From Bacteroidota bacterium (GTDB lineage: Bacteria; Bacteroidota; Rhodothermia; Rhodothermales; JAHQVL01), in NCBI GenBank assembly GCA_039111535.1, contig JBCCIM010000018.1, positions 1-53,794 on the forward strand: a DNA stretch of 53,794 nucleotides, read 5' to 3'. Under the pieces are notes generated by a model, which ran no database searches, was not told the DNA's origin, and was given only the letters and a program-made list of their open reading frames with translations. Shown here one piece after another: positions 1,996-53,450 of this stretch; position 1 is the first letter of the stretch, and each line of letters starts with the position of its first letter. The translations under genes were made by a program, and so were the position numbers.

Positions 1996-2004
1996 GGCAA
2001 GTTG

Positions 2005-3147: not shown

Positions 3148-3225
3148 CCGATAGCAATTGCCTTCGCGTGCTGATAGCACCGCAATATCCAGTATTACAC
3201 TTCTAAAATTGTAATCAAATCTTAC

Positions 3226-4365: not shown

Positions 4366-4376
4366 CAGAGTTCTGT

Positions 4377-7612: not shown

Positions 7613-7619
7613 GGATGTG

Positions 7620-8765: not shown

Positions 8766-8829
8766 CCAGCTGTTACCTGTCTGGTACTGCGTACGCTGCA
8801 ATTGTTTAAATCATTTCTACATCCCCGAC

Positions 8830-9447
8830 ATGAATTATCTATTGGCCCAGAAAATCATAGACATGCCCTGGCGTGTGCAAAACGAAGTGCGCCGGACCAT
8901 TGCGCTCCCTTACCTGAAAGTATTCTTTGCCATGAAGGGCATCGACTGGGGCAAGAACTGGCGTGTATTGGGCAAGCCCATTATTCAGCGCCACCGGAAG
9001 AGTTTGATTGAATTGGGGGATGGCGTTGTGTTACGTTCATGGCTCGAATCAAATCCCCTCGTTCCGATTCACCCCGTTGTGTTTTCCACCCGGTCCAAGC
9101 TCGCAGTAATCCGCGTTGGGAAAGAGTGCGGATTTACAGGTACAACCATTGTTGCTGCAGATCGGATTGAAATTGGTGACCGCGTGCAAATCGGAGCCAA
9201 CACCACGATTGTCGATACCGACTTTCATCCGCTGACGCCCGAAGGCCGCAAAAAAGACATGGCCAACGGAAAAAGCCGGCCTGTGATTATCCATGACGAT
9301 GTGTTTATCGGGATGAACTGCCTGATTTTAAAAGGCGTGGAGATTGGCGAAGGCAGCGTGATAGGCGCCGGCAGTGTCGTGAGCAAGGATGTCCCCCCGA
9401 GGACGATGGTAGGAGGCAATCCTGCCCGAATCATCCGCGAATTGTAG
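8830..9447 (+). CDS. Hexapeptide-repeat O-acetyltransferase
   Basis: A 205-residue left-handed beta-helix acyltransferase of the maltose/galactoside acetyltransferase group. Hexapeptide repeats run from about residue 95 to the C-terminus (for example GVEIGEGSVIGAGSVV followed by the closing GGNPARIIREL). The catalytic-type His lies in DTDFHPL. Such enzymes move an acetyl group from acetyl-CoA to a sugar hydroxyl, here probably decorating the repeat unit in the cytoplasm. The N-terminal 80 residues (an amphipathic start and VRRTIALPYLK) are longer than in small family members and may help membrane association. It sits between two glycosyltransferases. Confidence 0.88.
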   Translation: MNYLLAQKIIDMPWRVQNEVRRTIALPYLKVFFAMKGIDWGKNWRVLGKPIIQRHRKSLIELGDGVVLRSWLESNPLVPIHPVVFSTRSKLAVIRVGKECGFTGTTIVAADRIEIGDRVQIGANTTIVDTDFHPLTPEGRKKDMANGKSRPVIIHDDVFIGMNCLILKGVEIGEGSVIGAGSVVSKDVPPRTMVGGNPARIIREL

Positions 9448-9481
9448 CCCCCTGTGGAGATCCGTAACTAAGCCAGAACCC

Positions 9482-10750
9482 ATGATGCCCATGTACGCCC
9501 ACAAATCCATTCTTTTTGTTAATCAGCATTACTATCCAGACATTGCCGCTACCGGGCAAAAGCTAACCGACCTTGCTGAATATCTCGCAGCTTCCGGACA
9601 TCATGTAAATGTGATCTGCAGTCAGGGACGCTACATGGCTGGCGCCCTCGATGTGCCACGTGAAGAAGTGCGCAATGGTGTGCGGATTCATCGGACAAAA
9701 ACAATCAGCCGGGGGCGTGGATCTACACTGACGAGGTTGATTGACTACGCTTCTTTTTATCTCCGGGTATTTTTCTACATCTTGTTTGCCCGCAGGTACG
9801 ACTATATCGTCTATTTAACAACGCCGCCATTGCTGTCCGTTTTAGGTGGGGTTATGTACAAGCTGCGGGGGCAACAATATGGCATCTGGTCGATGGATTT
9901 GCATCCGGATGCAGAAGAAGTACTGGGTATGTTACGGCCGGCCGGGTTTGCTTCCAGAATGCTGCACGGCCTCAACGATTTTGGGTATCGCAATGCTGAA
10001 TTTGTAGTCGATTTGGGCGCCTACATGAAACAGCGCATCCTTAGAAAAGGTGTGCTGGACGAGCGGCTACACACCATTCCTTTATGGGACAAAGTTGAAG
10101 AATTTATTCCGGTGTCAAAAGAGGAGAATCCGCTGGTCAAAGAGCTCCGACTGGAAGATAAATTTGTCATCATGTATTCGGGCAATGCCGGCCTTGCGCA
10201 TCAGTTTGATGAGTTGCTCCTCACGATGGAGCAATTGAAAGATCACCCCAGGTTCTTTTTTCTGTTTGTTGGCAGTGGCGCACAACGTGCCCACATTGAG
10301 TCGTTTGCGCTGAACAAGAACATCCGGAATTACATGTACCTGGACTATTTCCCGAGGGAGCAACTACGGTTCTCGCTTGCCCTGGCAGATATTCACTTGC
10401 TAACACTGAAAAGCGAGATGGTTGGTGTTGCTGTACCAAGCAAATTGTACAGCATCATGGCGTCGGGAAAACCGGTGCTTATGATCGGGCCGGAAGCTTC
10501 TGATTCAGGTGAAATTATTTTGCAGGAAGACGCCGGCATGGTCATCGATCCTGTGCGGCATGTCGACAAAACCGCTGAGGTAATTGCCCAGACCCTGCAT
10601 TTCCTGGAAGAACGACAGGATCGTTGCTGGCAACTCGGCTTGAACGGCCGCCGCGCATTTACCGAGCATTACACCCAAAACGCAGGGTGCAATGCATGGC
10701 ATCGGTTACTGGAAGAAATTAACCAGGAAGCTCTAACCTACGCGCAATAG
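9482..10750 (+). CDS. Glycosyltransferase, WbuB-like GT4
   Basis: A 422-residue glycosyltransferase resembling the WbuB/colanic-acid GT4 group. The N-terminus has FVNQHYYPDIAATGQKLTDL, the acceptor half YLTTPPLLSVLGG, and the donor half VIMYSGNAGLAHQFDEL and VPSKLYSIMASGKPVLMIG. The Ser-Lys-x-Tyr-x-Ile-Met-Ala-x-Gly element is typical of WbuB, which adds an N-acetylated amino sugar in E. coli O26; this donor preference is only a family hint. Three Met codons lie close together at the start, so the true first residue could be a few codons later. The next gene starts 5 bases after the stop. Confidence 0.87.
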   Translation: MMPMYAHKSILFVNQHYYPDIAATGQKLTDLAEYLAASGHHVNVICSQGRYMAGALDVPREEVRNGVRIHRTKTISRGRGSTLTRLIDYASFYLRVFFYILFARRYDYIVYLTTPPLLSVLGGVMYKLRGQQYGIWSMDLHPDAEEVLGMLRPAGFASRMLHGLNDFGYRNAEFVVDLGAYMKQRILRKGVLDERLHTIPLWDKVEEFIPVSKEENPLVKELRLEDKFVIMYSGNAGLAHQFDELLLTMEQLKDHPRFFFLFVGSGAQRAHIESFALNKNIRNYMYLDYFPREQLRFSLALADIHLLTLKSEMVGVAVPSKLYSIMASGKPVLMIGPEASDSGEIILQEDAGMVIDPVRHVDKTAEVIAQTLHFLEERQDRCWQLGLNGRRAFTEHYTQNAGCNAWHRLLEEINQEALTYAQ

Positions 10751-10755
10751 ACCCT

Positions 10756-11775
10756 ATGTCATTTCAATTGAAGCGAACCTGGCGATTTACGCGCCGGCAA
10801 GCGAAGGAAGTAAAAAACCAACTGCTTGGGCGGTATCCTGATCGTAAAGGATTATACGACCTGTACCGTGCTGTAAGCCCGGCGCAGCGTCCTGTATCAT
10901 TGGCCGGAAAACTCTTTCCCAATCAGAATGCGAAGCTTCTTGTCTATGGGCTTACGCAACGGGGCTTTTTCTCCGAAATAAACAACATGATCAATGCCGC
11001 GATCTATTGTATGGATACAGATACCGGCTTTGTGTTGGATACCGAAGCTTTTCTCTATAAAGCTGAAAAAGGATGGGAAGACTACTTTGTGCGTTTCTGG
11101 GAAACGCCTGACCGATCTGGTTCGCAACGAACTTTTGAACTCCACTATCGCAGTGATCTCAAATTGTGGAATCGGATTCGGGCGTATCCATACGAAACCG
11201 TTCATATACCCGACCGTGGGTTGTATAACGCACAAGTATTTGAAAACAAGCGCCGGATAACTGCGCGCCTGTATCAATTCCAGCCGGCAGTTCGCAACCA
11301 TATCGAAGCGCAAATCGAGGAGATGAAACTGCCGGCCGGGTACGCGGCGTGCCACATTCGCAGAGGAGACAAAGTAGGGGAGCGGAAAGGGCAACCGGAA
11401 TCGGAACGGATAGAAGCCGCTGACTATGTAGATTGCCTTTTGCAAGAGAATCCCGAAATGCCAGCGCTCTTTGTTTGCTCTGATTCATACGCCTCAATCG
11501 AGGAAATACAGCAGTATATCGAAGCAAGAGGACTTGACATCGCGGTATTTACAACCTGTGCGCCTACAGCAATTGGACATTCTACAGAACTGTTGAAAGA
11601 GAAATTCGACAATCCTTATGACTCGGTGTTGCAGTTGTTGCTGGATGTAGAAATCTGTGCACGAGCGCAACACTTTGCCGGCACCTATTCCTCAAACATG
11701 TCCCGGTTCATCGCCTTGCGGCATGCAGATGCTTCCCGATGTTTTAGTTTGGACGAAGCCTGGCATGTAGGCTAA
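10756..11775 (+). CDS. Fucosyltransferase-like protein (FUT8/NodZ-like)
   Basis: A 339-residue protein. The clearest motif is CHIRRGDKVGERKGQPESE (about residues 195-213), the His-x-Arg-Arg-x-Asp-Lys element that binds GDP-fucose in alpha-1,6- and alpha-1,2-fucosyltransferases. Other supporting segments are the early QRGFFSEINNMINAA and the late FAGTYSSNMSRFIALR, which occupies the place of the C-terminal donor-site motif of FUT8/NodZ. It would transfer L-fucose, or a related 6-deoxyhexose, from its GDP donor to the surface glycan. The start is 5 bases after the previous glycosyltransferase, so the two are cotranscribed. A second protein with a related motif is encoded at 14.4 kb. Confidence 0.75.
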   Translation: MSFQLKRTWRFTRRQAKEVKNQLLGRYPDRKGLYDLYRAVSPAQRPVSLAGKLFPNQNAKLLVYGLTQRGFFSEINNMINAAIYCMDTDTGFVLDTEAFLYKAEKGWEDYFVRFWETPDRSGSQRTFELHYRSDLKLWNRIRAYPYETVHIPDRGLYNAQVFENKRRITARLYQFQPAVRNHIEAQIEEMKLPAGYAACHIRRGDKVGERKGQPESERIEAADYVDCLLQENPEMPALFVCSDSYASIEEIQQYIEARGLDIAVFTTCAPTAIGHSTELLKEKFDNPYDSVLQLLLDVEICARAQHFAGTYSSNMSRFIALRHADASRCFSLDEAWHVG

Positions 11776-11909
11776 GCCGCAATTTAAGTCTACATCCTGC
11801 CAGCCGATACTAGCTGTGCATATACTTCCCTGGCCTGTCTCGCAATAATTACCCCGGCCCCGTCTTGTTGCCAGGAAGCCTGATTTTCTACAAATCCTCC
11901 CGAATATAT

Positions 11910-14333
11910 ATGGCTTTTCGTCACGTTTTGGCACCTGTTGTATGGATGTTGTTTGTCCTGTTAGGTGCTGGCGCAGTGCACGCCCAAATTCCCCAGGATC
12001 ATGATTATCAGGTTACCCTACGGACGTACCTGGAGACTTTGACCGAAGCTGATTTTGAAGTAACACTGGAGCCTGTCGTGTATGAGGACAGCTTCTTTAC
12101 TTCGATGGACCAGCTACATGCTACCTGGATTCTATTGGAAGATTTTGGTCGCCAGTCGACGCTCGATATGACCGGTGTACGGGTTGATGCGTCTTATTTT
12201 GTGCTGTCGTCCATTGAGCAGAACGGGGAGGTGTATATGCGTGCCGGCAGGAATAGCGGCTTTCTTGATCCCGTTAATACTGCGTGGTGGGCCACGTGGG
12301 ATTATGCCGGTAACCCCTATTTTGATAGCCGGGCTGTGAAGCTCCGCGCCTTTGTTGCGTCGGCTGTTGACATGATGATGACAGACCACGAACTCGAGGG
12401 CAGCATTGTTAACCAGCGTAGCGATTATGTCGGCGGATATCTGGCAAAATATGGGTACGCTTACTATGTCGCGAAAGACCTGCTGGATGTAGAGGTGCAG
12501 GAGGCCTATGAAACCGGCTTGCTCAAGTTTTTTGAACGCCTCGAATCTTACCAGCCTTATGGGTCGGGTGGGGCAGACATGGAAGCATTTCAACTGCCGG
12601 CACTCTGGTACACTGCAGAGGCAATAGACTCAGACGATCTTCGGTTTCGTGCGCGCGAACGGACCCTGGATGTACTGCAAGAAATTATGCGCGGTGACGG
12701 CCATTACCACGAACACGGCAATGATGGCCTCGACCTGAGCTATGAAGGCATTTTACATCATTTTCTTGCATGGGCAGCTTTGTTATACGATGATCCTGAA
12801 ATTGATCAGTTTGTTGATAAGAGCGCGCGGTTAAAAGCGTATCAGACGCTGCCAGAGCCAAGCGGCCATTTTTTCAGTCCATCACACTTTAACACGGGTA
12901 CCGCGAAAGGAGAGGCCAATGATCAATGGCATTCGTACCAGCGAGATCACGCGATGGCCATGTTGTCTGAAGAGGCGCGTTACCTGATTTGGACAGGCCG
13001 TACATTGCCGGCCTGGTATGAGCAGGGGGTGCCTTCTGAAACAGTTATGCGCACCCAGATTGCCCAATCAATCATCAAGCGTAACGATGACACGGAGGCA
13101 ACAAGCATCTGGGCATGGATGGAGCCTTCTGCCAATACACCAGGCGTTTGGCGCGCGGAGCACTGGTTGCGGGGCCTTGCGGCGGCAGCAATTTTATACA
13201 AGCCGGGGTTTTATGCAGAACTTGAGGCGCTGGAGGCCAGCAATGCGCCGGCTACAAAACCGCCCTTCCTGCGCGAAGAAAACTTTATCGAGGAGTTTGG
13301 TGATACATTTGTAATTGCACGCTTTGATACCTACGGCGCGATTATCCATACGGGTTCTACCGTGTCTCAGTGGGGAAATGGAGTGCCAGGTTTGTCCGGT
13401 GGCAGTCTGTCCGCATTCTGGACAGAATCGACAGGCTCCGTAATTATGGGCCGCTCGCGAGGCACACAAAATGCCGATGCTGATGAATGGAGTGGCGATC
13501 GGGGATGGGATACCTGGGCCGTACATGCCATTTCCGGCGTTAATGCCAGCGGACAACCATTCAGCTCAGCGCGCAATAGAATCCCTGAAGTGGAGACAAC
13601 CATAACGGGCAACGAGGCTGCAACCATAACGGTCTCCGGTGCAATAGGCCAGCACGATAACGGATTGAGCGCGCCAGATCAAGCCATTGTGGGCGACGTG
13701 GCATACGAACGGGTTTTCTCGCTCAAGCCATCAGGCCTTACCGTTACCTCTACCCTTACATCCGATGAAAGCGACCAGGTAACCGCGCTGTGGGAAATGA
13801 TTCCGCTCTTCCTCGTGGACACAGTACAGGATGAAGCAGATGCGTCAATTTCATTGTATGTAGATGGTGCCTGGGTGCCGGCTACGGACGCAGTACAAGA
13901 AGGGGTAACAGCCATCAGGACGACCCGTTTTGATGAATCGGTTAAAATCACGTTTGAGCGGCCGCGCCGCGTTAAGCTCTCGTCCACCATCTGGGAGGCC
14001 AGTTCAGTTTCTTCCCGGATCCAGAATGTCATGGTGGATCTACTTGAACAAGAGGGCCCTGCTGCCCTGCCGGCAACAGCCTCCGTTACCTACGCCATTC
14101 GCCCCGCAGATGTATATGCTGTAGGAGACACCAGTGGTGATGGGCTCATCTCTGCATACGATGCAGCAGCCATTCTTCAACATCTTATCAATTACCAGAC
14201 CCTCGAACCTGCGGGTACAGTCGCAGCAGACGTCTCAGGAGATGGTACCATTACAGCTTTTGACGCCTCCCTTATCCTTCAATATATCGTTGGCCTGGTA
14301 GCCTGTATGCCGGCAGCAGATGGCTGCCAGTAA
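11910..14333 (+). CDS. Secreted polysaccharide-lyase-like protein with C-terminal dockerin
   Basis: An 807-residue exported protein. The N-terminus is a classical signal peptide (VLAPVVWMLFVLLGAGAVHA, cut before Gln). Residues about 30-430 look like an all-helical toroid as in heparinase II/III, alginate and chondroitin lyases, with a His-rich segment (GDGHYHEHGNDGLDLSYEG) and QWHSYQRDHAMAM as plausible catalytic parts. Residues about 450-720 are beta-rich, as in the C-terminal sandwich of those lyases. The last 75 residues form a type I dockerin: two calcium loops (DTSGDGLISAYD and DVSGDGTITAFD), each followed by a helix. A glycan lyase inside a glycan locus may trim or release the polymer. 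An upstream in-frame TTG was rejected because it would place 15 residues before the signal peptide. The exact lyase family is uncertain. Confidence 0.65.
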   Translation: MAFRHVLAPVVWMLFVLLGAGAVHAQIPQDHDYQVTLRTYLETLTEADFEVTLEPVVYEDSFFTSMDQLHATWILLEDFGRQSTLDMTGVRVDASYFVLSSIEQNGEVYMRAGRNSGFLDPVNTAWWATWDYAGNPYFDSRAVKLRAFVASAVDMMMTDHELEGSIVNQRSDYVGGYLAKYGYAYYVAKDLLDVEVQEAYETGLLKFFERLESYQPYGSGGADMEAFQLPALWYTAEAIDSDDLRFRARERTLDVLQEIMRGDGHYHEHGNDGLDLSYEGILHHFLAWAALLYDDPEIDQFVDKSARLKAYQTLPEPSGHFFSPSHFNTGTAKGEANDQWHSYQRDHAMAMLSEEARYLIWTGRTLPAWYEQGVPSETVMRTQIAQSIIKRNDDTEATSIWAWMEPSANTPGVWRAEHWLRGLAAAAILYKPGFYAELEALEASNAPATKPPFLREENFIEEFGDTFVIARFDTYGAIIHTGSTVSQWGNGVPGLSGGSLSAFWTESTGSVIMGRSRGTQNADADEWSGDRGWDTWAVHAISGVNASGQPFSSARNRIPEVETTITGNEAATITVSGAIGQHDNGLSAPDQAIVGDVAYERVFSLKPSGLTVTSTLTSDESDQVTALWEMIPLFLVDTVQDEADASISLYVDGAWVPATDAVQEGVTAIRTTRFDESVKITFERPRRVKLSSTIWEASSVSSRIQNVMVDLLEQEGPAALPATASVTYAIRPADVYAVGDTSGDGLISAYDAAAILQHLINYQTLEPAGTVAADVSGDGTITAFDASLILQYIVGLVACMPAADGCQ

Positions 14334-14363
14334 TACACGCATGCCGCGCTTGCAATTCTTCTA

Positions 14364-15365
14364 ATGCAACAGAAATACCTTATTGTAAAAGGGTGCGCGG
14401 GGCTTGGTAATAGAATCTCTACACTTTGCGCAGCCATTGAATACGCACGCGATACAAATCGGACTATCCTTGTTGATTGGGCTGACGGCGTCATTATGCC
14501 CGAAGGCTACAATTTCTTTGATGATTACTTCGTCCTGAAAAATGTAGCGCACGTTACCTCATACGAAGAAATCCCAAATCGTGATAAGCTGAGCTTTTAT
14601 CCGAATATGGATGGGCAGGATATCACTTCGGGGACCTATCACTTGTTTGATCAACTTGATGAACCCCAACACGCACCTATTCCGTTTCATCGGCTGCCAA
14701 AAAACAAACTTCGTACCCTGTACCGGCACTGGCGGGTTAAGCACAAGAAGCGGACAGAATTGCCGCGTCGTCCATGGATACTCTTCGATGACAGGGTATT
14801 GCCTTATGGCGGAGACATGTCACGCAGGATAAAAAAGGATGTCGTTTTTTATGTGGATTATATACCGTCCTTTTCGCAGCAGACCGTAAGGGAAAACCTG
14901 CGCCTGAGCGATCCGCTGGAGGCGCGTATTGCTGCTTTTGTTGATCAGCGACTCGACGGTGGGAAAGCTGTGGGCGTACACGTGCGGTCGACAGATAAAA
15001 AGCCTGATGCTGAAATCAGAGACTTGCTTGCACAGGTACGGCAACTTGCAAAGGACAACACCAGCATCTTTCTTTCAACGGATAACATCGTACTGCAGCA
15101 GGAATTGCAGCAGACACTTCAAAATGTGCACGTGTACCCGAAAGACTTGCCGCAAGTGACGTGTGGGGGAATTCATCAGTGGTCTGTACGAAATAACGAT
15201 CACAAAAAATCCGTTGAAATCCTTGAGTCCAGCATCATCGATATGTACTTACTTTCTCGATGCGAATTTTTGTTATTTCAGGGTAATTCTTCGTTTTCGC
15301 GCATAGCTGCTGTTATGCATGGGAATGAACAAAAGGCATTTGACTGGAATGCGGTTGCCGGCTAA
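14364..15365 (+). CDS. NodZ-like fucosyltransferase family protein
   Basis: A 333-residue protein beginning MQQKYLIVKGCAGLGNRIST; the Gly-Leu-Gly-Asn-Arg loop and the GVHVRSTDKKPD motif (about residue 205) together point to the alpha-1,6-fucosyltransferase superfamily that includes rhizobial NodZ. The donor would be GDP-fucose or a similar nucleotide sugar. A C-terminal LLFQGNSSFSRIAAVM segment resembles the donor-site end of this fold. It is the second such enzyme of the locus, and the two differ enough in sequence not to be a recent duplication. It follows the dockerin protein gene by 30 bases. After it the cluster has a 223-base gap. Confidence 0.72.
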   Translation: MQQKYLIVKGCAGLGNRISTLCAAIEYARDTNRTILVDWADGVIMPEGYNFFDDYFVLKNVAHVTSYEEIPNRDKLSFYPNMDGQDITSGTYHLFDQLDEPQHAPIPFHRLPKNKLRTLYRHWRVKHKKRTELPRRPWILFDDRVLPYGGDMSRRIKKDVVFYVDYIPSFSQQTVRENLRLSDPLEARIAAFVDQRLDGGKAVGVHVRSTDKKPDAEIRDLLAQVRQLAKDNTSIFLSTDNIVLQQELQQTLQNVHVYPKDLPQVTCGGIHQWSVRNNDHKKSVEILESSIIDMYLLSRCEFLLFQGNSSFSRIAAVMHGNEQKAFDWNAVAG

Positions 15366-15412
15366 CACCGGGTCACTTCTGTTTTTTATCTGACCGGCAC
15401 ACCTTTTGGTTC

Positions 15413-15535
15413 ATGCCTGATTTCCAGCTTCTGACAAGGAGCTTTTTCGTGTCCTGGCTGGCAGGGTATCTCATCATGTGGCACACGTGCCACCGCTCCC
15501 CGACCTTTCTATCTATGGGGGTCCTGCCAACCTGA
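15413..15535 (+). CDS. Possible small hydrophobic peptide (40 aa), doubtful
   Basis: An ATG-started reading frame of 40 residues fills much of the gap before the sugar-phosphate transferase gene. The central part (SFFVSWLAGYLIMWHT) could span a membrane. No good ribosome-binding site precedes it and the frame contains the hairpin sequence noted nearby, so it may be only chance in a leader RNA. No family is recognised. Confidence 0.15.
   Translation: MPDFQLLTRSFFVSWLAGYLIMWHTCHRSPTFLSMGVLPT
15478..15493. promoter_or_regulatory. Perfect inverted repeat in the leader of the transferase/lasso operon
   Basis: GTGGCAC and GTGCCAC flank a two-base centre, giving a 7-bp perfect inverted repeat about 100 bases before the sugar-1-phosphate transferase gene. 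A second, wider pairing (GGCAGG near 15460 with CCTGCC near 15527) encloses it. The gap could hold an operator or a structured leader RNA that controls the downstream genes, including the lasso cluster. There is no T-run, so it is not an intrinsic terminator. Confidence 0.35.
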
Positions 15536-15588
15536 TTTCGCTACTCTCCACGCGTTCTGCGTTTAATCTATAGAGACAAAAGATCTCC

Positions 15589-16830
15589 ATGAACTTCTTT
15601 GTCCTGGCGATGGGCTTTGCCCTGGCCTTTGTTTCATCTTTGATCCTGACGCCCCTGGTTGCCCGGTTTGCAAAACACAACAAGTGGGTGGATTTACCGG
15701 GTGGGCAACGTACGGTCCATATCAAGGCGACGCCCCGTGCCGGCGGTATAGCAGTGATCTTTACGTTTTTAATAGGCATCTTCTTTTTAATGTACAGCGG
15801 TGCCGGCCTGGCAATGCCGCTTGGTGCAACCGCGCATCCTTTCTCCTGGGCTTTGTTGTTGGGCGCAATCACCATCGCGCTCACGGGGTTGTACGATGAT
15901 GCTTACGGGCTTGGCTTTAAGAAAAAATTCCTGTTTCAACTGGTTGTTGCGTACGGAATGTATTTGGCCGGCTTCCGGGTGGTTGTCCCTGAAATTTCTT
16001 TTCTGGATTCAGATCCTTATCTGCAGGCTGCCTTGGGTTTGCCGCTTACGTTGCTCTGGTATCTCGGGGTGATGAATGCCGTAAACCTTGTCGATGGTCT
16101 TGATGGCCTGGCGTCTGGTGTATCATTGATCAGCTTTTGCAGCCTGGCCGCGATCTTTGTATTGCACGGGGATGTCAGCCTTGTGCCGGTAGCGATTGCG
16201 ATGGCCGGGGCGCTGCTGGGTTTTCTTGTGTTCAATTTTAATCCGGCGTCCATTTTTCTCGGGGATACCGGTAGCCTCTTTTTGGGCTTTATGGTCGCCA
16301 CGTATGCATTACAAGGGACCACCCATACCCATCCGGTACTCGCTGTAGTGGTTATGGCATTGTGTATTGGGTACCCGCTTGTCGATACAACCCTGGCTTT
16401 TGTACGCCGGTTTGTTAAAGGCGAGTCGCCATTTGCCCCGGACAAAGACCACATCCACCACAGGCTTGTACACCGCAAGCGATTCTCAACAAAAGGGAGC
16501 GTTGTGGCCTTGTATCTGATTCACGGTGGCATGGCGGTCGCAGCCATTGGACTTTCGTTGGTTGCACCTGCGTGGGGATTGCTCTTGATCATCGCCGCTG
16601 CGGGTTTTGTCGCGCTCATTTTGCGCTGGTTGGGGTACCTGAACGTGCAGCGTGGTATCAAACTTATCAAGCGGCGCCTGTCCGATGAAATTGGTGAACG
16701 CGTGCCACGTGGCAGTTGGAGTGGAGATGGCGCCGTACGCTCTGTGCTTGAGCCTGTTGCCAATGCGCCAAAAAAATTACGACCCGAAAAAGAGGATGAA
16801 CGCGAACTGGTTATGCCTTCTTTTGACTAG
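15589..16830 (+). CDS. Polyprenyl-phosphate sugar-1-phosphate transferase (WecA/MraY family)
   Basis: A 413-residue integral membrane enzyme with about eleven spans. Family motifs are in order: the cytoplasmic Asp pair (GLYDDAYGLGFKKK), NAVNLVDGLDGLASG, FLGDTGSLFLGF and the His-rich loop DKDHIHHRLVHR. It attaches a sugar-1-phosphate from a UDP-sugar to undecaprenyl phosphate, the first step of O-antigen, teichoic or exopolysaccharide repeat units. Compared with WecA (about 367 residues) there is an extra charged C-terminal tail of about 50 residues. It is the last polysaccharide gene; the lasso B1 gene starts 14 bases after its stop, so both functions may share a transcript. Confidence 0.9.
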   Translation: MNFFVLAMGFALAFVSSLILTPLVARFAKHNKWVDLPGGQRTVHIKATPRAGGIAVIFTFLIGIFFLMYSGAGLAMPLGATAHPFSWALLLGAITIALTGLYDDAYGLGFKKKFLFQLVVAYGMYLAGFRVVVPEISFLDSDPYLQAALGLPLTLLWYLGVMNAVNLVDGLDGLASGVSLISFCSLAAIFVLHGDVSLVPVAIAMAGALLGFLVFNFNPASIFLGDTGSLFLGFMVATYALQGTTHTHPVLAVVVMALCIGYPLVDTTLAFVRRFVKGESPFAPDKDHIHHRLVHRKRFSTKGSVVALYLIHGGMAVAAIGLSLVAPAWGLLLIIAAAGFVALILRWLGYLNVQRGIKLIKRRLSDEIGERVPRGSWSGDGAVRSVLEPVANAPKKLRPEKEDERELVMPSFD

Positions 16831-16844
16831 CCCCGTAGGCTGGA

Positions 16845-17186
16845 ATGAAGTGGAATCCAGTACGTTACTGGACGATGTTTGAAAACGATAAACTTATGAT
16901 GGACCTAAACGACATTGTAGAAGCAAACAACAACCTCATGATGGCAGATCTTGAAGGGGAAGCTGTGTTGCTGAACATCCAGACAGGACGCTATTTCGGG
17001 TTGAACGATGTAGGCACCACGGTCTGGTCGCTATTAAAAACACCTTGCACCATTGAAGACATTTTGCTGCATATGCAAGGACGCTATGAAGTCTCTGCAG
17101 ACGCATTGCGGGAAGATATACTTCAATTTCTTGCTGATATGGAAAAGCGGAATCTGATCCGCATTGTGGTCCCGGCAAATGCGTAG
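16845..17186 (+). CDS. Lasso peptide B1 protein (PqqD-like RiPP recognition element)
   Basis: A small protein (113 residues from the first ATG; 103 or 96 from later ATGs) with the PqqD fold. The winged-helix core is seen in ADLEGEAVLLNIQTGRYFG and LNDVGTTVWSLL. In lasso systems with split B proteins this domain grips the Tyr-x-x-Pro motif of the leader and presents the precursor to the protease and cyclase. The partner leader at 19.6 kb has exactly that motif. Its stop codon lies inside the start of the B2 gene (ATGCGTAG), which implies coupled translation at equal amounts. None of the possible starts has a strong ribosome-binding site, so the exact start is open. Confidence 0.9.
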   Translation: MKWNPVRYWTMFENDKLMMDLNDIVEANNNLMMADLEGEAVLLNIQTGRYFGLNDVGTTVWSLLKTPCTIEDILLHMQGRYEVSADALREDILQFLADMEKRNLIRIVVPANA

Positions 17187-17607
17187 CCGGATACAACGCC
17201 TCTGGTATTTCAGGAAATCGCTGACAGGGGCTTTTGTGATGCTTGCTTTACTTCGTATTGCTCTTGCTGTGCTCCCCTATCGCAACGTACGAAGAGCCAT
17301 AGCAGCATCTGGAGAACGATTTCCCGAGCGACGGATGCATCTGATCGCGTATGAAACAGAGATGGTATGGGCCATCGAGCGGGTAGGTCGGTATGTGGTT
17401 GGCAAAAAACCCTGCCTGCCGCAGGCCCTGGCCCTTCAGTGGTTTTTACGGCGTAAAGGCATCGTCACGAGCCTGCATATCGGGGTTAAAAAAGACGATA
17501 CAAAAGGCATTGCAGCCCACGCATGGCTGGAGAAGAACGGACGGGTGCTTATCGGTGGCTCGGATTCTCCGGCAGATTTTGAACGATTGGAAACAGTCAA
17601 CTCTTAA
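17179..17607 (+). CDS. Lasso peptide B2 protein (transglutaminase-like leader protease)
   Basis: A 142-residue protein of the transglutaminase-like superfamily. The catalytic Cys79 sits in KKPCLPQALAL and the catalytic His114 in AAHAWLEKNG, the two conserved segments of McjB-type proteases. The third triad residue is not obvious. The N-terminal third is hydrophobic and basic, as in other stand-alone B2 proteins. It would cut the precursor behind the leader, after the conserved Thr at position -2, in complex with B1. The ATG overlapping the B1 stop by 8 bases is preferred over an upstream TTG. The cyclase gene follows after 5 bases. Confidence 0.92.
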   Translation: MRSRIQRLWYFRKSLTGAFVMLALLRIALAVLPYRNVRRAIAASGERFPERRMHLIAYETEMVWAIERVGRYVVGKKPCLPQALALQWFLRRKGIVTSLHIGVKKDDTKGIAAHAWLEKNGRVLIGGSDSPADFERLETVNS

Positions 17608-17612
17608 CGCAT

Positions 17613-19526
17613 ATGAGCGCAATTGTAGGGATCTTGCAGCAGGATGGACAGCCTGTGGAAGCAAGCCGCTTTGAGAAAATGCACGATGTACTTACCCACC
17701 GCGGCCCTGATGGGGAGGGTGTGTGGTATGGACCGGCGGTTGCTCTGGGCCACCAAATGCTGCATACAACAGAAGAGTCACTACGCGCAGTTTTGCCTTT
17801 GGCAAACGGTGATACGTCCGTCGTGCTGACAGCAGATGCCCGGATCGACAACCGCGGCGAGTTATTGGCTGATCTTCAACTTCCGCCAACGGTAACTGAC
17901 GAAGAAATCATCTTGCACGCGTACCGGCGATGGGGGGCAACGTGTCCAGTACATCTCATTGGGGCCTACGCTTTTGCCATTTGGGATGCCGCCCGGCAAC
18001 GCCTTTTTTGTGCACGCGATCATTATGGATTAAAGCCCTTTTACTATTGCCATGTGCCCGGACAGTTTTTTGCGTTTGCATCCGAATTGAAGGCATTGCT
18101 CGAGCATCCTGAAGTGCCGCGTATCCTGAATGAGATGGCCGTAGCTGAGCATCTGCTGGCGCCCGTAGACGTTGATACAACCATCACATTCTATAAAGAC
18201 ATTGCCAGACTGGCGCCGGCGCATAGCCTGGTTGTAACCCGCGAGGAAGTAAAGCAGCAACGGTACTGGCACCTCGATCCGGAACGGGAAATCCGCTACG
18301 GCAGCGACGAAGAATATGCAGAAGAATTGCGCCGGCTCTTTGCGCAAGCTGTGGCTTGCCGAACCCGCAGCGCATTCCCCGTAGGGTCGATGTTAAGCGG
18401 AGGGCTTGACTCCTCTTCGATTGTTTCTGTTGCCGCCGAAACAGCCAGTAAGGAGGCGCCACTGTATACGTATTCCGCTGTGTTCAACAAAATGCAGCAG
18501 AGCGACGAGCGGCCCTATATCAACATGGTGTTGGATAAGTATGGGGAGCGCCTTACCCCACGCATGGTTGCCGCAGACCAACTGAGTCCGTTGCAGCACT
18601 ATGCGGATATGCTTTGGCATCAGGACAGCGCCATTCAGGCCGGCAATCTTTACTTCTTCTGGAATCTTTACCAGCAGGCACGCACGGACGGTGTACGTGT
18701 AATTCTAGACGGATTTGATGGGGATACTACGCTGTCGCATGGCATCGGATATCTCCATGAATTGGCGCGGGCGCGGAAATGGAAAACCCTGGTGCATGAA
18801 GTACGCAGCCACGCTAAAAACTGGGGCCAACCCTGGAAAGGGGTTGCCTGGCAGTGGTTCAGGGAATACGAAGTGGCGCCTATTGTGCGCAAGTGGCCAG
18901 CTGTTTTGAATGCCCGCAGTATTGCAAAGGAGGCCGTGCGACAGTTACCGCGACGCAAAGCGCCGGCAACAGCTGCACTCAACTGGACGCACATGCTTGA
19001 TACAACTTTTGCAGCAGGCATACGCGATAACATTCGCCCACAGCGCCCCATGGCCCGCACGGAACGGGAAGAGCATTGTTACTTGCTTGGCCGGCCCGTT
19101 ATGCATCGAATTATAGAAGTTTGGGAAGCCTCAGCAGCGGCCGCCGGCCTGGAGTTGCGGTTACCCTTTTGTGATCGCAGGTTGCTTGAGTTTTGTCTTG
19201 CACTACCTGCAAATCAAAAAAGACGTGATGGATGGTCACGCGTGGTGATGCGCCATGCGATGGATGGGGTTTTGCCACGGGGAATCCAGTGGCGCGCCGA
19301 CAAAGGCAACCTGGGCCCCAGCTTTGATCACGGTCTTCTTGTAAAAGCCAAAGAAGAGTTGCAACAAATGATGGACGGGGATACCGGCGCTATCAGCCGA
19401 TTTGTAGATCTGGACATGTTGCACAAAACGCATCCAGAGTTTAAACAGGAGAGCATGGATAATTACACGGTATACCACTGGCGAGCTTTATCCTTGGCCT
19501 TGTGGTTGCAGTATACCGGTTTGTAA
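17613..19526 (+). CDS. Lasso peptide C protein (asparagine-synthetase-like macrolactam synthetase)
   Basis: A 637-residue asparagine-synthetase homologue that closes the lasso ring: it adenylates the side-chain carboxylate of the ring Asp/Glu and joins it to the freed alpha-amine of core residue 1. The ATP-binding PP-loop is intact (LSGGLDSSS, residues 261-269), as is an acidic element (DGFDGDTTLSHG). The N-terminus reads MSAIVGIL, so the glutaminase nucleophile Cys2 is replaced by Ser. This fits lasso cyclases, which need no ammonia, and contrasts with the AsnB-type enzyme at 5.7 kb. It lies 5 bases after B2. A 79-base gap then leads to the precursor gene, which has its own strong ribosome-binding site. 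Confidence 0.92.
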   Translation: MSAIVGILQQDGQPVEASRFEKMHDVLTHRGPDGEGVWYGPAVALGHQMLHTTEESLRAVLPLANGDTSVVLTADARIDNRGELLADLQLPPTVTDEEIILHAYRRWGATCPVHLIGAYAFAIWDAARQRLFCARDHYGLKPFYYCHVPGQFFAFASELKALLEHPEVPRILNEMAVAEHLLAPVDVDTTITFYKDIARLAPAHSLVVTREEVKQQRYWHLDPEREIRYGSDEEYAEELRRLFAQAVACRTRSAFPVGSMLSGGLDSSSIVSVAAETASKEAPLYTYSAVFNKMQQSDERPYINMVLDKYGERLTPRMVAADQLSPLQHYADMLWHQDSAIQAGNLYFFWNLYQQARTDGVRVILDGFDGDTTLSHGIGYLHELARARKWKTLVHEVRSHAKNWGQPWKGVAWQWFREYEVAPIVRKWPAVLNARSIAKEAVRQLPRRKAPATAALNWTHMLDTTFAAGIRDNIRPQRPMARTEREEHCYLLGRPVMHRIIEVWEASAAAAGLELRLPFCDRRLLEFCLALPANQKRRDGWSRVVMRHAMDGVLPRGIQWRADKGNLGPSFDHGLLVKAKEELQQMMDGDTGAISRFVDLDMLHKTHPEFKQESMDNYTVYHWRALSLALWLQYTGL

Positions 19527-19594
19527 TCCTTCTATTTGTACCCTGGCCGGCACCCCCGGTCACCGTTTCATTTCTTTCACAATGCCTAAATCTT

Positions 19595-19599
19595 GGAGG
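19595..19599 (+). promoter_or_regulatory. Strong Shine-Dalgarno of the lasso precursor gene
   Basis: GGAGG stands six bases before the ATG. Most genes of this window lack such a site, so its presence fixes the start of the 49-codon precursor gene and suggests high translation of the peptide relative to the enzymes. Confidence 0.8.
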
Positions 19600-19605
19600 T
19601 TTATT

Positions 19606-19755
19606 ATGAATAAACAAGATAAGAAGCAGTATCAGGCGCCTGTCGTAATTGATTACGGCGATGTCGCTGAACTGACTCAGAACTCAAACAACAACAATAG
19701 CGACGGACAGGGAAACAGCACAGGCTGCCAGTCTCCTTTCTGCAGCAATGGTTGA
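19606..19755 (+). CDS. Lasso peptide precursor (49 aa)
   Basis: A 49-codon gene directly after the cyclase gene. The leader (about 25 residues) ends in YQAPVVIDYGDVAELTQ, which fits the lasso leader pattern Tyr-x2-Pro-x5-Gly-x5-Thr-x, with Thr at -2. Cleavage after Gln25 frees a 24-residue core starting NSNNNNSD, so Asp8 is the expected ring acceptor for the amine of Asn1 (8-membered ring). The tail after the ring contains Gly9, Gly11, Gly15, Cys16, Pro19, Phe20 and Cys21 and ends Ser-Asn-Gly. Phe20 is the only bulky residue, so it or a Cys16-Cys21 disulfide loop would have to hold the thread. Seven Asn and five Ser make the core very polar. The leader match and gene order are seen; ring size, disulfide and start residue are inferred. 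Confidence 0.9.
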   Translation: MNKQDKKQYQAPVVIDYGDVAELTQNSNNNNSDGQGNSTGCQSPFCSNG

Positions 19756-19769
19756 TTAAAGCATACAGT

Positions 19770-19808
19770 ATGACGTTTCCAAAGGCGTAGATTCGATGGA
19801 AACGTCAT
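19770..19808 (+). terminator. Hairpin 15 bases after the precursor stop (attenuator or RNA stabiliser)
   Basis: ATGACGTTTCCA pairs perfectly with TGGAAACGTCAT (12 bp) around a 15-base loop. A run of six T follows 12 bases after the stem, too far for a textbook intrinsic terminator. Its place between the precursor gene and the kinase/exporter genes suggests partial termination or protection of the upstream mRNA, which would raise precursor over enzyme levels. Confidence 0.6.
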
Positions 19809-19829
19809 CTGGATGCTGACTTTTTTAAA

Positions 19830-19859
19830 CTGCCTTGCCATGCTTGCATGTCAGGGCAG
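19830..19859 (+). promoter_or_regulatory. Second hairpin between precursor and kinase genes
   Basis: CTGCCTTG pairs with CAGGGCAG (one G-U), and after one mismatch CATGC pairs with GCATG around a minimal loop. No T-run follows. Together with the first hairpin it fills the 227-base gap, the largest inside the lasso cluster, and may be an RNA-processing or stability element. No separate gene is visible in this gap. Confidence 0.45.
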
Positions 19860-19971
19860 GACGCTACATTGTGTACAATGCCCCCGGCGAGCTGCTCGCA
19901 GGATACCTGTTGGTAAGTTGCCGTAATGCATTGGTGCGCAATGCTTAACTGGTATAAAGCATCTCAAGGCC

Positions 19972-19976
19972 AAGGA
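19972..19976 (+). promoter_or_regulatory. Ribosome-binding site deciding a TTG start
   Basis: AAGGA lies six bases before TTG at 19983. The next in-frame ATG would remove the conserved N-terminal segment (YSAFGLSIRSQVPF) of the kinase family, so the TTG is taken as the start. Confidence 0.55.
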
Positions 19977-19982
19977 TAAAGC

Positions 19983-20948
19983 TTGTTAGAACATGTTCAT
20001 CTTGCTGATCTAGATCAGCGCCCCCCATTTCAGACATATAGTGCATTTGGCCTCAGTATCAGGTCGCAGGTTCCGTTTATGGACCCCGGCGAGTCTGTGA
20101 AAGAGGTTGATGTAGAAATAGTATTGGATAGGTTGCCGCAGCATTGGCTGGCGGATCCAAGAGCCGCTGCCGGATTTTTGGAAGTGGAAGGGGAGACGAT
20201 CTGGTTTGTCTGGGCTGACCTTGGCGTCATGCAGATCCACGCCGGCAAACGGATTGTCTTGCATCCAGTCCCTGAATCGCAGCGGTCCCTGATGCATCAG
20301 GCCGTGCAAAGCGCCGGCCTCGGCCTGCTGTTGCACCAGCGCGGGTTGCTAACATTACACGCCAGTGCTGTTGAAGTGAACGGCGTTGCCGTAGCCTTTG
20401 TGGGATACAAAGGGGCTGGCAAGTCTACCACAGCTGCTGCACTGTATGGACAAGGGCACGCGTTGGTTACCGACGATTTGCTTGTGCTCCAGCAAAACGC
20501 GTGCGGTACTATTGATGCATATCCCGGCATACCGCAACTCCGGTTATGGCCCGAAGCTGTGGCAGCATCGCTGGATGAAGACCCAGAATTGCTACCCAGA
20601 AACTCTGCAGCTTCTGTAAAGCGCTTACGGAATACGTCGCAGCAATTTGCTACAGCATCCCATCCGCTTCAGTGCATCTATGTGCTCGATTTTCAGCCGG
20701 AAGGAGCGGAAGGAATTACCATATCACCACTTGTGCCCCGCGACGCGTGCATCGAGATGATCAGGCATTCTTATGCCTTGCATTACCTCGGTAATGAAGG
20801 CGCAAGTGCACCACATCTCAAACAAAGTAGCCTGCTCAGTCAGCAGGTTGCCGTCCGAAAACTGCTGCGTCCTCGTGCCCTGGATGCATTGCCTCAACTC
20901 GTTGCCGCAATTGAAGCAGATGTGGCTGCCCATTCAGTGCCGGCTTAG
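19983..20948 (+). CDS. HPr-kinase-like lasso peptide kinase
   Basis: A 321-residue protein related to the C-terminal domain of HPr kinase/phosphorylase. Motifs are the early TYSAFGLSIRS, LTLHASAV (His126), the P-loop GYKGAGKST (141-149), VTDDLLVL (Asp164/165) and PGIPQLRLWP. Homologues in paeninodin-type lasso clusters phosphorylate a Ser near the peptide C-terminus. Here the core has Ser18 and Ser22 in the tail and Ser13/Thr14 in the loop as possible targets; Ser22, two residues from the end, is the closest match. There is no N-terminal HPr kinase domain and no HPr gene nearby, so a sugar-transport role is unlikely. The substrate is inferred from gene order. Confidence 0.85.
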   Translation: MLEHVHLADLDQRPPFQTYSAFGLSIRSQVPFMDPGESVKEVDVEIVLDRLPQHWLADPRAAAGFLEVEGETIWFVWADLGVMQIHAGKRIVLHPVPESQRSLMHQAVQSAGLGLLLHQRGLLTLHASAVEVNGVAVAFVGYKGAGKSTTAAALYGQGHALVTDDLLVLQQNACGTIDAYPGIPQLRLWPEAVAASLDEDPELLPRNSAASVKRLRNTSQQFATASHPLQCIYVLDFQPEGAEGITISPLVPRDACIEMIRHSYALHYLGNEGASAPHLKQSSLLSQQVAVRKLLRPRALDALPQLVAAIEADVAAHSVPA

Positions 20949-21028
20949 TTGACCGGCTGGTCAATACATCCGGATGCATTGAAAGGCAGCAATACAGGCG
21001 TCCAATTGCCTAATTGCATATTAAGCCT

Positions 21029-22930
21029 ATGCCTACGCTGAACAAAACCACGCTCATGAAGCGGTGGAAGCTGTTTACACGCGCAATACATCTTATCTGG
21101 GAAGCCACTGGCCGATGGACCCTTGTGTGGGCCGGCCTGCTTGTGTTACAAGGATTGCTGCCAGCGCTAACCGTTTATCTGTCCAAAATCCTGGTAGACC
21201 AGCTTGCGCTCGTCATGGGTGCATCAGATACCTCTGCTGCACTCTGGAGCATGGCTACGCCATTGGCCTGGCTCGGCGGGGTGTTACTGCTTGCGCAACT
21301 GCTTCAAGGTGCAATCTCATGGGTCCGTGCGGCGCAAGCGGAGCTATTGCAAGACCACATTAAGGCGAAGGTACATGAACAGGCTGCGCGGGTTGATCTG
21401 GAGTTTTATGAGTCGCCGGCGTACTACGATGAAATGGAACGCGCTAACAGCCAGGCAGACAAAGACTCGCTTGCGCTTTTGGAAAGCCTCGGGCAAATCA
21501 TTCAACACAGCATTACCCTGTTTGCGATTGCCGCGCTCATCATCCCTTATGGCGCCTGGTTGCCTCTGGCGCTGTTGGTGAGTACGTTGCCGGCGCTATG
21601 GGTTGTAATCCGACATAACCTGTTGCACCACGCCTGGTGGAAAGATACAACAGAAAAGCGCCGCAGAACCCAGTATTACGACTGGATCCTTACAAATCGT
21701 TTCTACGCTTACGAGGTCCGCATCTTCAAGTTGAGTGCCCATTTTCGGGAGCGATTTAATGCCTTGCGTACCACGTTACGCAAGGCTCAGCTTGCCCTGA
21801 TGAAAAAACAGAGCATCGCCCAGGCAGGCGCCGGCAGTTCTGCTTTTATTGTGACGGGAGCTGTCATGGGATGGATGATGGTGCGTGCAATACAGGGCCG
21901 GGCAACGCTGGGTGATCTTGCACTCTTTTATCAGGCTTTCCAGAAAGGACAGTCGCTGATGCGGACATTACTCCAGGGTATCGGGCGCGTATACACCAGT
22001 ATGCTGTTTCTCGAACATCTATTCAATTTTCTGGATATCAAACCCGTCATGCAGGTGACTGAGGCCAAAGCGGCTCTACCTGCTGCACCGTATACCATCG
22101 ATATTGAAGCGGTTGATTTTCGCTATCCGGGCAGCGATCAACTGGCACTGGAGAATTTTAACCTGCATATTCCTGCCGGACAGACGGTAGCGATACTAGG
22201 CCCTAACGGCGCCGGCAAAAGTACATTGATCAAAATGTTATGCCGGTTTTATGACCCGGAAAAAGGTAGCATCAAAATAAATGATGTGGACATCCGCGAC
22301 GTATCACACCAGGCTTTGCTGCAAGAGGTGACCGTGCTCTTTCAATACTGGGTCAACTACGCCGGGACGCTTGCTGAAACCATTGCACTTGGTGCCATAG
22401 ACGGCGGTATGGATGAGGCACGCGTCAGGGTTGCAGCTGCAGCGAGTGGCGTTGACAGCATGCTCCCTGATCTGCCGGCAGGATACGATACCCTGCTCGA
22501 TAAACGGTTTAGCGGTGGTGTTGACCTTAGTGGTGGGCAGTGGCAACGCGTAGCGCTGGCCCGTGCGTTTTATCGCGAAGCTCCAATTTTACTACTCGAT
22601 GAGCCCACAAGCGCCATGGATCCGTGGGCGGAGACGCGCTGGCTAGATCAGTTCTTTGAGTTGGCCCGCGAGCGAACCACGCTGGTTGTTACACATCGGC
22701 TAAGTACAGCCATGCGGGCAGACAAAATTTATGTCATGGATCGCGGCAACGTTATCGAATCAGGTACACACAATGAGTTGTTGCGCTTTGGCGGTATGTA
22801 TGCGCAGTCGTGGTTTGATAAGATGCGGACCAGTGCAGAGGAGGGAGATAGCAAGTTGTCTGATAAGAAACGCAGCAGCCGGCGGCGGACTCGGGCAGGC
22901 AAAGGCACCTTGCCCCGAACAACATCCTGA
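21029..22930 (+). CDS. ABC exporter, probably for the lasso peptide
   Basis: A 633-residue fused permease-ATPase. About six membrane spans occupy residues 25-330. The ATPase part has Walker A GPNGAGKS (391-398), the signature LSGGQWQRVALARAF, Walker B ILLLDEPTSAMD and the switch His in VTHRLS. There is no N-terminal C39 peptidase domain, as expected because B2 removes the leader. The C-terminal 25 residues are rich in Arg, Lys and Ser. Lasso clusters usually carry such a D protein, which exports the product and gives self-immunity. It follows the kinase gene after 80 bases and ends exactly where the convergent nucleotidyltransferase gene ends. The ATG is preferred over a TTG five codons upstream. 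Confidence 0.85.
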   Translation: MPTLNKTTLMKRWKLFTRAIHLIWEATGRWTLVWAGLLVLQGLLPALTVYLSKILVDQLALVMGASDTSAALWSMATPLAWLGGVLLLAQLLQGAISWVRAAQAELLQDHIKAKVHEQAARVDLEFYESPAYYDEMERANSQADKDSLALLESLGQIIQHSITLFAIAALIIPYGAWLPLALLVSTLPALWVVIRHNLLHHAWWKDTTEKRRRTQYYDWILTNRFYAYEVRIFKLSAHFRERFNALRTTLRKAQLALMKKQSIAQAGAGSSAFIVTGAVMGWMMVRAIQGRATLGDLALFYQAFQKGQSLMRTLLQGIGRVYTSMLFLEHLFNFLDIKPVMQVTEAKAALPAAPYTIDIEAVDFRYPGSDQLALENFNLHIPAGQTVAILGPNGAGKSTLIKMLCRFYDPEKGSIKINDVDIRDVSHQALLQEVTVLFQYWVNYAGTLAETIALGAIDGGMDEARVRVAAAASGVDSMLPDLPAGYDTLLDKRFSGGVDLSGGQWQRVALARAFYREAPILLLDEPTSAMDPWAETRWLDQFFELARERTTLVVTHRLSTAMRADKIYVMDRGNVIESGTHNELLRFGGMYAQSWFDKMRTSAEEGDSKLSDKKRSSRRRTRAGKGTLPRTTS

Positions 22931-24079
22931 TTACCGAACAGCTTTTCGAGACCAACGGCGCTTCCAGTGTTCAGCTGTTACATAACCGAGGTACATAGCC
23001 TTTTCAGACCACCGCGGGAAAAGGCCGGCCTGGATGCGGTGGAACTGGAAAGATTTCTCTTCTGCATCGTCGTCAAATAGCCGCTCCATAATCTGATCGG
23101 ATAGCGCGAACAACGTGCTGTCTTTGGCAATGAGCCGGCGAATTGTGTCGGGGATCGGAATCTGAAACAAACGATGAACCAGCAACACGTTTAGGCTGAG
23201 CATACGCTCGGCCTTTATGCGTTTGGCGCGTATCGCAATTTTTTGCCAGTTGAGCGGAACGTTGGTCATATATGCCGCCAGGTCCGTCAGCATGTACATC
23301 CGAAACCAGCCATGCTTAGCGCTGTGCACACATAGCAGGCAGAACTGATCCTCAGGAGCCAGGCTCGGAATACGCGTGTCATCGAGCATCACATGTGTTG
23401 CTCGCTTCCATACATCCTGGCTGTCGAAGGTGGCAGCATACGACATTTTGATGAAGGACCGCTGCTCCAGAGAAAAATGGACATCCACATCTACCGTATT
23501 ACCATAGAAAGTCAGCTGGCGTTGGCGGGCTAGCTGTGCTTTTTCTTCAGCAGGTGTCAGACGGGTATCAAATCCAAGTTGCAATAAGCGCTCTTTTGCC
23601 GGCGCAAAATGTACTTCGTGAATCAGTACATCGAGGTCGCCAGGTTTGCGCCAGATCGGGTTTCCATAGACTTCGGCGCCAAGCTGGATGCCTTTGAAGA
23701 AAAGGATAGGCATGTTTACCGATGCAAAGTCGTCAATCAAGTGCTTCATCACACGGGTCTGCATGGCAATGAGCAGGCCAATGCTATGAAAGTCATTTTG
23801 GAGCCTGGTTTTGACGTTTTGCGGCACGAGCGAGTGGTGTTTGTCCTTCAGCGTTTTGTAAAAAAGAGGAATACCTCCATGTTTACGCGCCAACTGGATG
23901 AGTGCGTCCCATCGCAGGGTGTAGGTGCTCAGGAGTTCGTCAATTTTTGCAAAGCGGGACTGGCTTTCTCCTGCTTGCATGAGCAGCAGAAATAATTGCG
24001 ACTCTGGAGGGAGCGATGCAACAAAATCATAAGATTTTTCAGACAAGACGTCTGCTAAATCAGAATAGGGTGTACCCAT
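22931..24079 (-). CDS. Nucleotidyltransferase family protein (PF14907-like), lasso-associated
   Basis: A 382-residue protein with the fold of uncharacterised bacterial nucleotidyltransferases (NTP_transf_5). The core is HGGIPLFYKTL, then PILFFKGIQLGAEVYG, then WRKPGDLDVLIHE, in which Gly-Asp-Leu-Asp supplies the metal-binding acidic pair, and later DVDVHFSL. Such genes recur next to lasso clusters that have an HPr-kinase-like enzyme, where they are thought to extend the phosphorylated tail. It is transcribed toward the exporter and the two stop codons are adjacent with no free base, so transcripts must overlap. This orientation means it has its own promoter. The function on this peptide is inference. 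Confidence 0.8.
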   Translation of the reverse strand: MGTPYSDLADVLSEKSYDFVASLPPESQLFLLLMQAGESQSRFAKIDELLSTYTLRWDALIQLARKHGGIPLFYKTLKDKHHSLVPQNVKTRLQNDFHSIGLLIAMQTRVMKHLIDDFASVNMPILFFKGIQLGAEVYGNPIWRKPGDLDVLIHEVHFAPAKERLLQLGFDTRLTPAEEKAQLARQRQLTFYGNTVDVDVHFSLEQRSFIKMSYAATFDSQDVWKRATHVMLDDTRIPSLAPEDQFCLLCVHSAKHGWFRMYMLTDLAAYMTNVPLNWQKIAIRAKRIKAERMLSLNVLLVHRLFQIPIPDTIRRLIAKDSTLFALSDQIMERLFDDDAEEKSFQFHRIQAGLFPRWSEKAMYLGYVTAEHWKRRWSRKAVR

Positions 24080-52736: not shown

Positions 52737-52748
52737 CCATAAACGTAG

Positions 52749-53450
52749 ATGCTGGATAACTTTACTCAGGTCATGAATCCACAAGTAACCGCCGGCCAGA
52801 TAATATTGGGGCTTGGGGTGGCTTTTTTGTGTGGATTCATCATCACCTATTTTTATAAGTGGGCGTACCGCGGTTCAAATTATACACCTTCGTATGTGCG
52901 TTCGCTACTCTACCTGACGTTGATTGCTGCGATGATCATCATGGTCATTGGCAATAACCTCGCGCGGGCGTTTGGGTTAGTAGGAGCCATGTCAATTATA
53001 CGGTTTCGAACGGCGCTGAAAGATACACAGGATATTGTATTTGTATTCTTTTCACTGGCTGTCGGGTTGGCAGCCGGCGTGGGCATGTACGGCCTTGCAC
53101 TTGGGGGGACTCTGGCTGTCGGACTCGTCATTCTGATTACGTCTAGAACGAACTTTGCTGCCCTAAATCGTAAAAGTTACCTCGTCCAATTCACTTTCGA
53201 CGATACGCCGGCAGCCAATGAAAACGCTGCGGCATCGGGCAATGAGGCACCTTACCTGGACGTTTTTAATCGATATGCCCGTAAACATCGCCTGGTTAAC
53301 CTGCGCACTGCTGAGGGCAGCGACACCCTTGATCTGACCTATTACGTCTTCCTGAAAGACCCCAAAGAGGCAGAAGCTTTAACTCGCGCGCTGGGTGATA
53401 TTGCGCAAGTTTCTCGTGTAAATGTTTTCTATGACGAGGCGATGAACTAA
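52749..53450 (+). CDS. DUF4956 membrane protein
   Basis: A 233-residue protein with four membrane helices in the first 140 residues and a soluble C-terminal domain. The hallmark is the loop AMSIIRFRTALKDTQDIVFVFF between helices, with its conserved Arg-Phe-Arg and Asp residues, followed by AVGLAAGVGMYGLALGG. Such proteins accompany VTC-domain proteins in many bacteria, and the two probably form a membrane complex, perhaps one that moves or anchors a polyanion. Third gene of the adaptor-VTC-DUF4956 operon. A terminator lies after its stop. Confidence 0.85.
   Translation: MLDNFTQVMNPQVTAGQIILGLGVAFLCGFIITYFYKWAYRGSNYTPSYVRSLLYLTLIAAMIIMVIGNNLARAFGLVGAMSIIRFRTALKDTQDIVFVFFSLAVGLAAGVGMYGLALGGTLAVGLVILITSRTNFAALNRKSYLVQFTFDDTPAANENAAASGNEAPYLDVFNRYARKHRLVNLRTAEGSDTLDLTYYVFLKDPKEAEALTRALGDIAQVSRVNVFYDEAMN

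Follow-up and report, generated by a model that had tools for sequence, protein, structure and literature searches.

A predicted class IV-like lasso peptide with a conserved tail cysteine pair and an adjoining kinase gene in the Rhodothermales

What would lock a lasso peptide whose tail offers a single bulky residue, set within a pair of cysteines? The question is raised by an open reading frame at 19606-19755 (+) of the 53,794-nucleotide contig JBCCIM010000018.1 from a member of the Rhodothermales (the whole stretch is called the window here), whose 49-residue product consists of a leader, MNKQDKKQYQAPVVIDYGDVAELTQ, followed by a core, NSNNNNSDGQGNSTGCQSPFCSNG. A sequence-only reading had proposed an unusual lasso precursor with an Asn-rich ring and a new kind of thread lock. 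The features that bear on this proposal are as follows.

16845-17186, +: B1, PqqD-like leader-binding (RRE) protein (Pfam PqqD, 68 bits; NF033536 lasso_PqqD_Bac, 73.8 bits, just below the cut-off of 80)
17164-17607, +: B2, leader peptidase, transglutaminase-like (NF033537 lasso_biosyn_B2, 88 bits, cut-off 33)
17613-19526, +: C, lasso isopeptide-forming cyclase of the asparagine-synthetase family (NF033535, 720 bits, cut-off 525)
19594-19599, +: ribosome-binding site GGAGG of the precursor gene (from sequence; favours the ATG at 19606 over the in-frame ATG at 19582)
19606-19680, +: leader peptide (NF033521, 26.4 bits, cut-off 19; no change at Y, P, G or T across 8 aligned relatives)
19681-19752, +: predicted core peptide (from sequence and comparison with the relatives G002, G001 and G068; candidate phospho-Ser22)
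19769-19806, +: strong hairpin, stem ATGACGTTTCCA/TGGAAACGTCAT, with a T run shortly after (fold of the 80 nt downstream of the precursor gene, -27.8 kcal/mol)
19983-20948, +: K, HPr-type lasso-peptide kinase (Pfam Hpr_kinase_C, 33.9 bits, cut-off 33.3; catalytic His/Lys/Asp-Asp kept)
21014-22930, +: D, ABC exporter (ABC_tran, 111.7 bits, MsbA-like; syntenic in G001, G002, G023 and G012)
22931-24079, -: N, uncharacterised nucleotidyltransferase (NTP_transf_5), convergent (Pfam PF14907, 154.8 bits)

The B1, B2, C, precursor (A), kinase and exporter genes share one orientation and span 16845-22930, in an order that is the same in relatives. B1, B2 and C lie in one cluster, B2 and C above their model cut-offs and B1 a clear PqqD protein though below that of NF033536. 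The precursor frame begins approximately 80 nt 3' of the cyclase gene and, as the sequence-only reading had stated, its leader follows the pattern Y9-x2-P12-x5-G18-x5-T24-x exactly. Taken alone this motif is weak evidence for a lasso precursor, and the bare DNA pattern has three matches in the window against 0.49 by chance. The precursor also passes the curated lasso-leader model NF033521; it stays below the cut-off of NF033528 (lasso_cyano; 29.6 bits against 33), which counts against a class IV-like lasso cluster. A search of solved structures gave no match to it. Judged by its sequence, the frame is a lasso precursor.

We give a probability of about 0.72 to the reading that the lasso cluster is complete and encodes a class IV-like lasso peptide, with a cystine loop aiding the lock, that is phosphorylated by the kinase and exported. 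The leader, bound by B1, would be removed by B2 with a cut behind Thr(-2)-Gln(-1). The cyclase C would then join the Asn1 amine and the Asp8 side chain, closing an 8-residue ring around a pre-folded tail. Oxidation of Cys16 and Cys21 may then enclose Phe20 in a small loop of the tail; this loop would help to stop the tail slipping out and would stand in for the Tyr plug of near relatives. Phosphorylation of the precursor by the HPr-type kinase would most likely fall on Ser22, and the product would leave the cell through the ABC exporter, any biological activity being likewise a prediction. The calculated monoisotopic masses are 2383.878 for the lactam, 2381.862 with the disulfide as well and 2461.829 with a phosphate added to both; for a product trimmed behind Ser22 they are 2210.798, or 2290.764 if phosphorylated.

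Cyclase matches at E 1e-60 or better occur in 30 of 99 relatives; those at 1e-70 were confined to this order in a class-wide search, with weaker matches in a few other families in a sample of the phylum. The cyclases of G001 and G002, each from a further genus of this family, are 53% identical to that of the window, and the three form a clade (support 100/100) in which the members with a Cys-bearing tail, the window and G002, are sisters (93/80). A mobile or viral origin was considered and rejected, as no relative of the precursor was found in plasmids and none of the cyclase in viral contigs; plasmid cyclases are at most approximately 36% identical to that of the window, and the sole cyclase match in a genome-contig scan, from Anoxybacillus, is 27% identical. 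In genus g5 (clusters L086, L088 and L098), multiple precursors, for example GSCWYGKQGGQYDADLGPGTLSDCR and SGWGHPPGLPGGG..., lie beside one cyclase, the core of the second type being rich in Trp, Gly and His and lacking an acidic residue near its start.

The G002 precursor, ...VELTR followed by NSGAPNSDGQGNGTACFGDFCSDPRDP, shares the leader framework and aligns with the window core without gaps, 14 of 24 residues being identical (N1, S2, N6, S7, D8, G9, Q10, G11, N12, T14, C16, F20, C21 and S22). Eight of these (N1, S2, D8, G9, Q10, G11, F20 and C21) are kept with different synonymous codons. Residues 3-5, 17-19 and all those after 22 vary: G002 has Gly-Ala-Pro in the ring, a second tail Phe (Phe17) and a five-residue extension after Ser22, and otherwise carries every unusual feature of the window core except its Asn run. 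The numbering given previously for Asn1, Asp8, Cys16, Phe20 and Cys21 is correct and five of the first seven core residues are Asn, yet the alignment with homologous precursors that had been suggested as a check divides these features: Asn1, Asp8, Cys16, Phe20, Cys21 and Ser22 are kept in G002, and Asn3-5 are not. The latter are encoded by an AAC-AAC-AAC run, and we reject an Asn-rich ring as a functional feature. Since the remaining residues are kept, several with changed codons, selection appears, from this comparison, to hold Asn1, the acceptor, the Cys pair, Phe20 and Ser22, but not Asn richness.

Phe20 is, as noted previously, the sole bulky residue of the window tail, and both the window and G002 have exactly one Cys pair, Cys16 and Cys21, wholly within the tail and at the same spacing. 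The pair is best read, on this conservation, as a class IV-like disulfide, which agrees with the earlier proposal. The lasso cluster holds no gene for a disulfide-forming enzyme, which counts against a class IV-like product; class IV clusters need no such enzyme (PMC9266682). Near relatives outside the Cys-bearing pair suggest what the loop may have replaced. In an ungapped alignment, Tyr16 (DNTAY) of G068, a member of another family with the precursor ...EEVTR followed by GGGASSSDGQGDNTAYSPGHPGYDANA, stands opposite Cys16 of the window (NSTGC) and of G002 (NGTAC). In G001, whose precursor reads ...AELTA followed by QAGAQNADVPEGTPNTAYPPVS, NTAY comes two residues later and the alignment needs a two-residue insertion; the tails of three more relatives contain TFYS or TQYS. 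The Tyr of G068 and G001 is likely the plug, and the simplest reading of the four sequences from the window, G002, G068 and G001 is that the putative cystine loop Cys16-x4-Cys21 around Phe20 took over from a Tyr plug. The exact Cys16-x4-Cys21 tail occurs in only two precursors, the window and G002, which counts against our reading. A leader pattern yields 39 predicted cores across the order, some of them orthologues and a few of them doubtful ORFs; 15 of the 39 contain two Cys and no more, each time within the tail, and this recurrence of tail-only pairs looks new.

The product might instead be a lasso peptide plugged by Phe20 alone, the Cys pair merely stiffening the tail or staying reduced. 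We consider this somewhat unlikely. Phe20 is kept in G002 with a changed codon and lasso disulfides are reportedly unnecessary for maintaining the interlock (PMC13352647), but both Cys are kept in G002 at equal spacing, Cys21 with a changed codon, and Cys pairs confined to the tail turn up repeatedly in the order.

The kinase raises the question of its target. His-Lys-Asp-Asp is kept in K in an alignment of 14 kinases, and a homologue is present in most related clusters. Paeninodin-type kinases are described as needing a C-terminal Ser (PMC9266682; PMC8498205), whereas the window core ends Ser22-Asn-Gly, which counts against the kinase step of our reading. Position 22 is Ser in all three family members (window, G001 and G002), followed by Asn-Gly in the window and by Asp-Pro-Arg-Asp-Pro in G002, and forming the C-terminus itself in G001. 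Ser22 is therefore predicted to be the phosphorylated residue, either as an internal site with the extension tolerated or after trimming; a kinase beside a core that lacks a C-terminal Ser, yet shares Ser22, looks new. Modification of ring Ser2 or Ser7 is a doubtful alternative. BsfK phosphorylates Ser3 of BsfA, a precursor ending in Asp (PMC10368454), and both ring Ser are kept in G002, but in G001, where the same kinase gene adjoins, the ring lacks Ser and the core's only Ser is at position 22. Furthermore, 9 of the 12 related cores carry [F/Y/W/C]-Ser within their last 12 residues, where shuffled sequences give an expectation of 1.8, a result that is only supportive because the motif was picked after seeing the data, the cores are related and kinase presence was unchecked for G095 and G060. 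The more specific proposal, that in this lineage a cystine-loop lock replaced an aromatic plug and that Ser22 is phosphorylated beside the loop (either internally or once the C-terminal residues have been trimmed off), is offered tentatively.

Weak homologues of the N nucleotidyltransferase adjoin other lasso clusters of the order, and N is a possible tailoring enzyme; together, the kinase and nucleotidyltransferase genes, which the sequence-only reading had passed over, predict further modification of the peptide. The hairpin at 19769-19806 is likely a partial terminator ahead of the kinase gene. Similar inverted repeats were seen by eye 3' of the precursor in G068, G023 and G012; none was evident by eye in G002, and a consensus terminator scan did not list the window hairpin. 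Such a hairpin would fit a higher dosage of precursor. The lasso cluster lies directly 3' of an exopolysaccharide locus (793-16830) that includes glycosyltransferases, an O-antigen ligase-like protein and a Glycos_transf_4 protein (WecA/MraY family), and a WecA-like gene is upstream of lasso B1 in G012 and G010 as well. Near the far end of the window, a HlyD-like protein (50886-51932) precedes a VTC-domain protein and then a membrane protein (51939-53450), possibly a polyphosphate-related set.

The predicted cut before Asn1 and the ring to Asp8 are supported, in agreement with the first proposal, and both residues are kept in G002. Asp8 is the sole acidic residue of the core and lies at core position 7-9, where an acceptor is expected, so that it must be the acceptor if a ring forms. 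A cut at Thr-x would leave no choice but an 8-residue ring from Asn1 to Asp8. All 8 aligned precursors have Asp at position 8 or 9. A cut shifted by one residue would give a 7-residue Ser2-Asp8 or a 9-residue Gln(-1)-Asp8 ring; lasso rings of both sizes are known (PMC9266682), but Thr(-2) is invariant in all eight, the Thr-to-Asp spacing is constant in seven and Asn1 is kept in G002, making a shift very unlikely. Lasso peptides in general prefer Gly (62%), Ala (16%) or Leu (7%) at position 1 (PMC7549694). Among the same leader-pattern matches of the order, position 1 is Ala in 11, Thr in 7, and Asn, Gly and Asp in 4 each, with others making up the 39, and two further precursors start with Asn and have Asp8 (NQSSAGCD... 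and NQSAGGCD...). Asn1 as an unprecedented first residue is rejected: it was demonstrated by MS in metanodin in 2025 (PMC12670498).

Two Asn1-Asp8 cores, from L008 and L009 (G023 and G012; precursors NQSSAGCDHPCGGVDDTFYSTGK and NQSAGGCDHPCGVNNIDNTFYSVGVK), have a ring Cys7 and a tail Cys11 that could form a ring-tail, class III-like disulfide. Very few class III lasso peptides are known.

A decaying or unexpressed cluster with a core free of selection, to which the Asn3-5 codon run and the unconserved C-terminal residues might point, is highly improbable given intact genes throughout, synonymous changes at conserved core residues and synteny across genera.

Set against known systems, the window peptide resembles the class IV peptides LP2006, the felipeptins and pandonodin, as reviews describe them, in its single Cys pair wholly within the tail and its lack of need for a dedicated disulfide gene. 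Their tail disulfide is described as a plug, whereas that of the window is predicted; those peptides are reported from Actinobacteria and Proteobacteria, and the window peptide comes from another phylum, starts with Asn and has a cluster with a kinase and possibly a nucleotidyltransferase. A 2022 review lists only three class IV peptides, none described from this group of bacteria. The idea of a disulfide plug as a new thread lock does not survive, as tail disulfides already figure as plugs in class IV (PMC7549694, PMC9266682, PMC12427821). Metanodin, from a soil metagenome (Steroidobacterales), shares Asn as the first ring residue, Thr at -2 and an Asp acceptor; it derives from a proteobacterial ABC cluster, and the sections consulted describe no tail Cys pair and mention no kinase. 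Paeninodin, pseudomycoidin and the Bradymonas bsf cluster are reported to share the HPr-type kinase with His-Lys-Asp-Asp and the split B1/B2, and the psm and bsf clusters also have a nucleotidyltransferase; paeninodin-type substrates reportedly have Ser as their last residue and in bsf the site is Ser3, whereas the window core ends Ser-Asn-Gly. Asn1 and a tail disulfide plug each already have a characterised precedent. What is new, as far as the papers compared show, is the combination, the lineage, and a kinase beside a non-Ser C-terminus with tail Cys.

Compared with one another, the window cluster, the sister with its Cys-bearing tail and the relatives with Tyr would offer a direct test of whether a tail disulfide can do the work of a bulky plug. 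If true, the replacement of a plug by a cystine loop would be a first natural before-and-after pair for the evolution of a disulfide lock. The rule of a C-terminal Ser for lasso kinases may also prove too narrow, and the order, with tail-only Cys pairs in 15 of those 39 predicted cores, is suggested as a reservoir of candidate class IV peptides.
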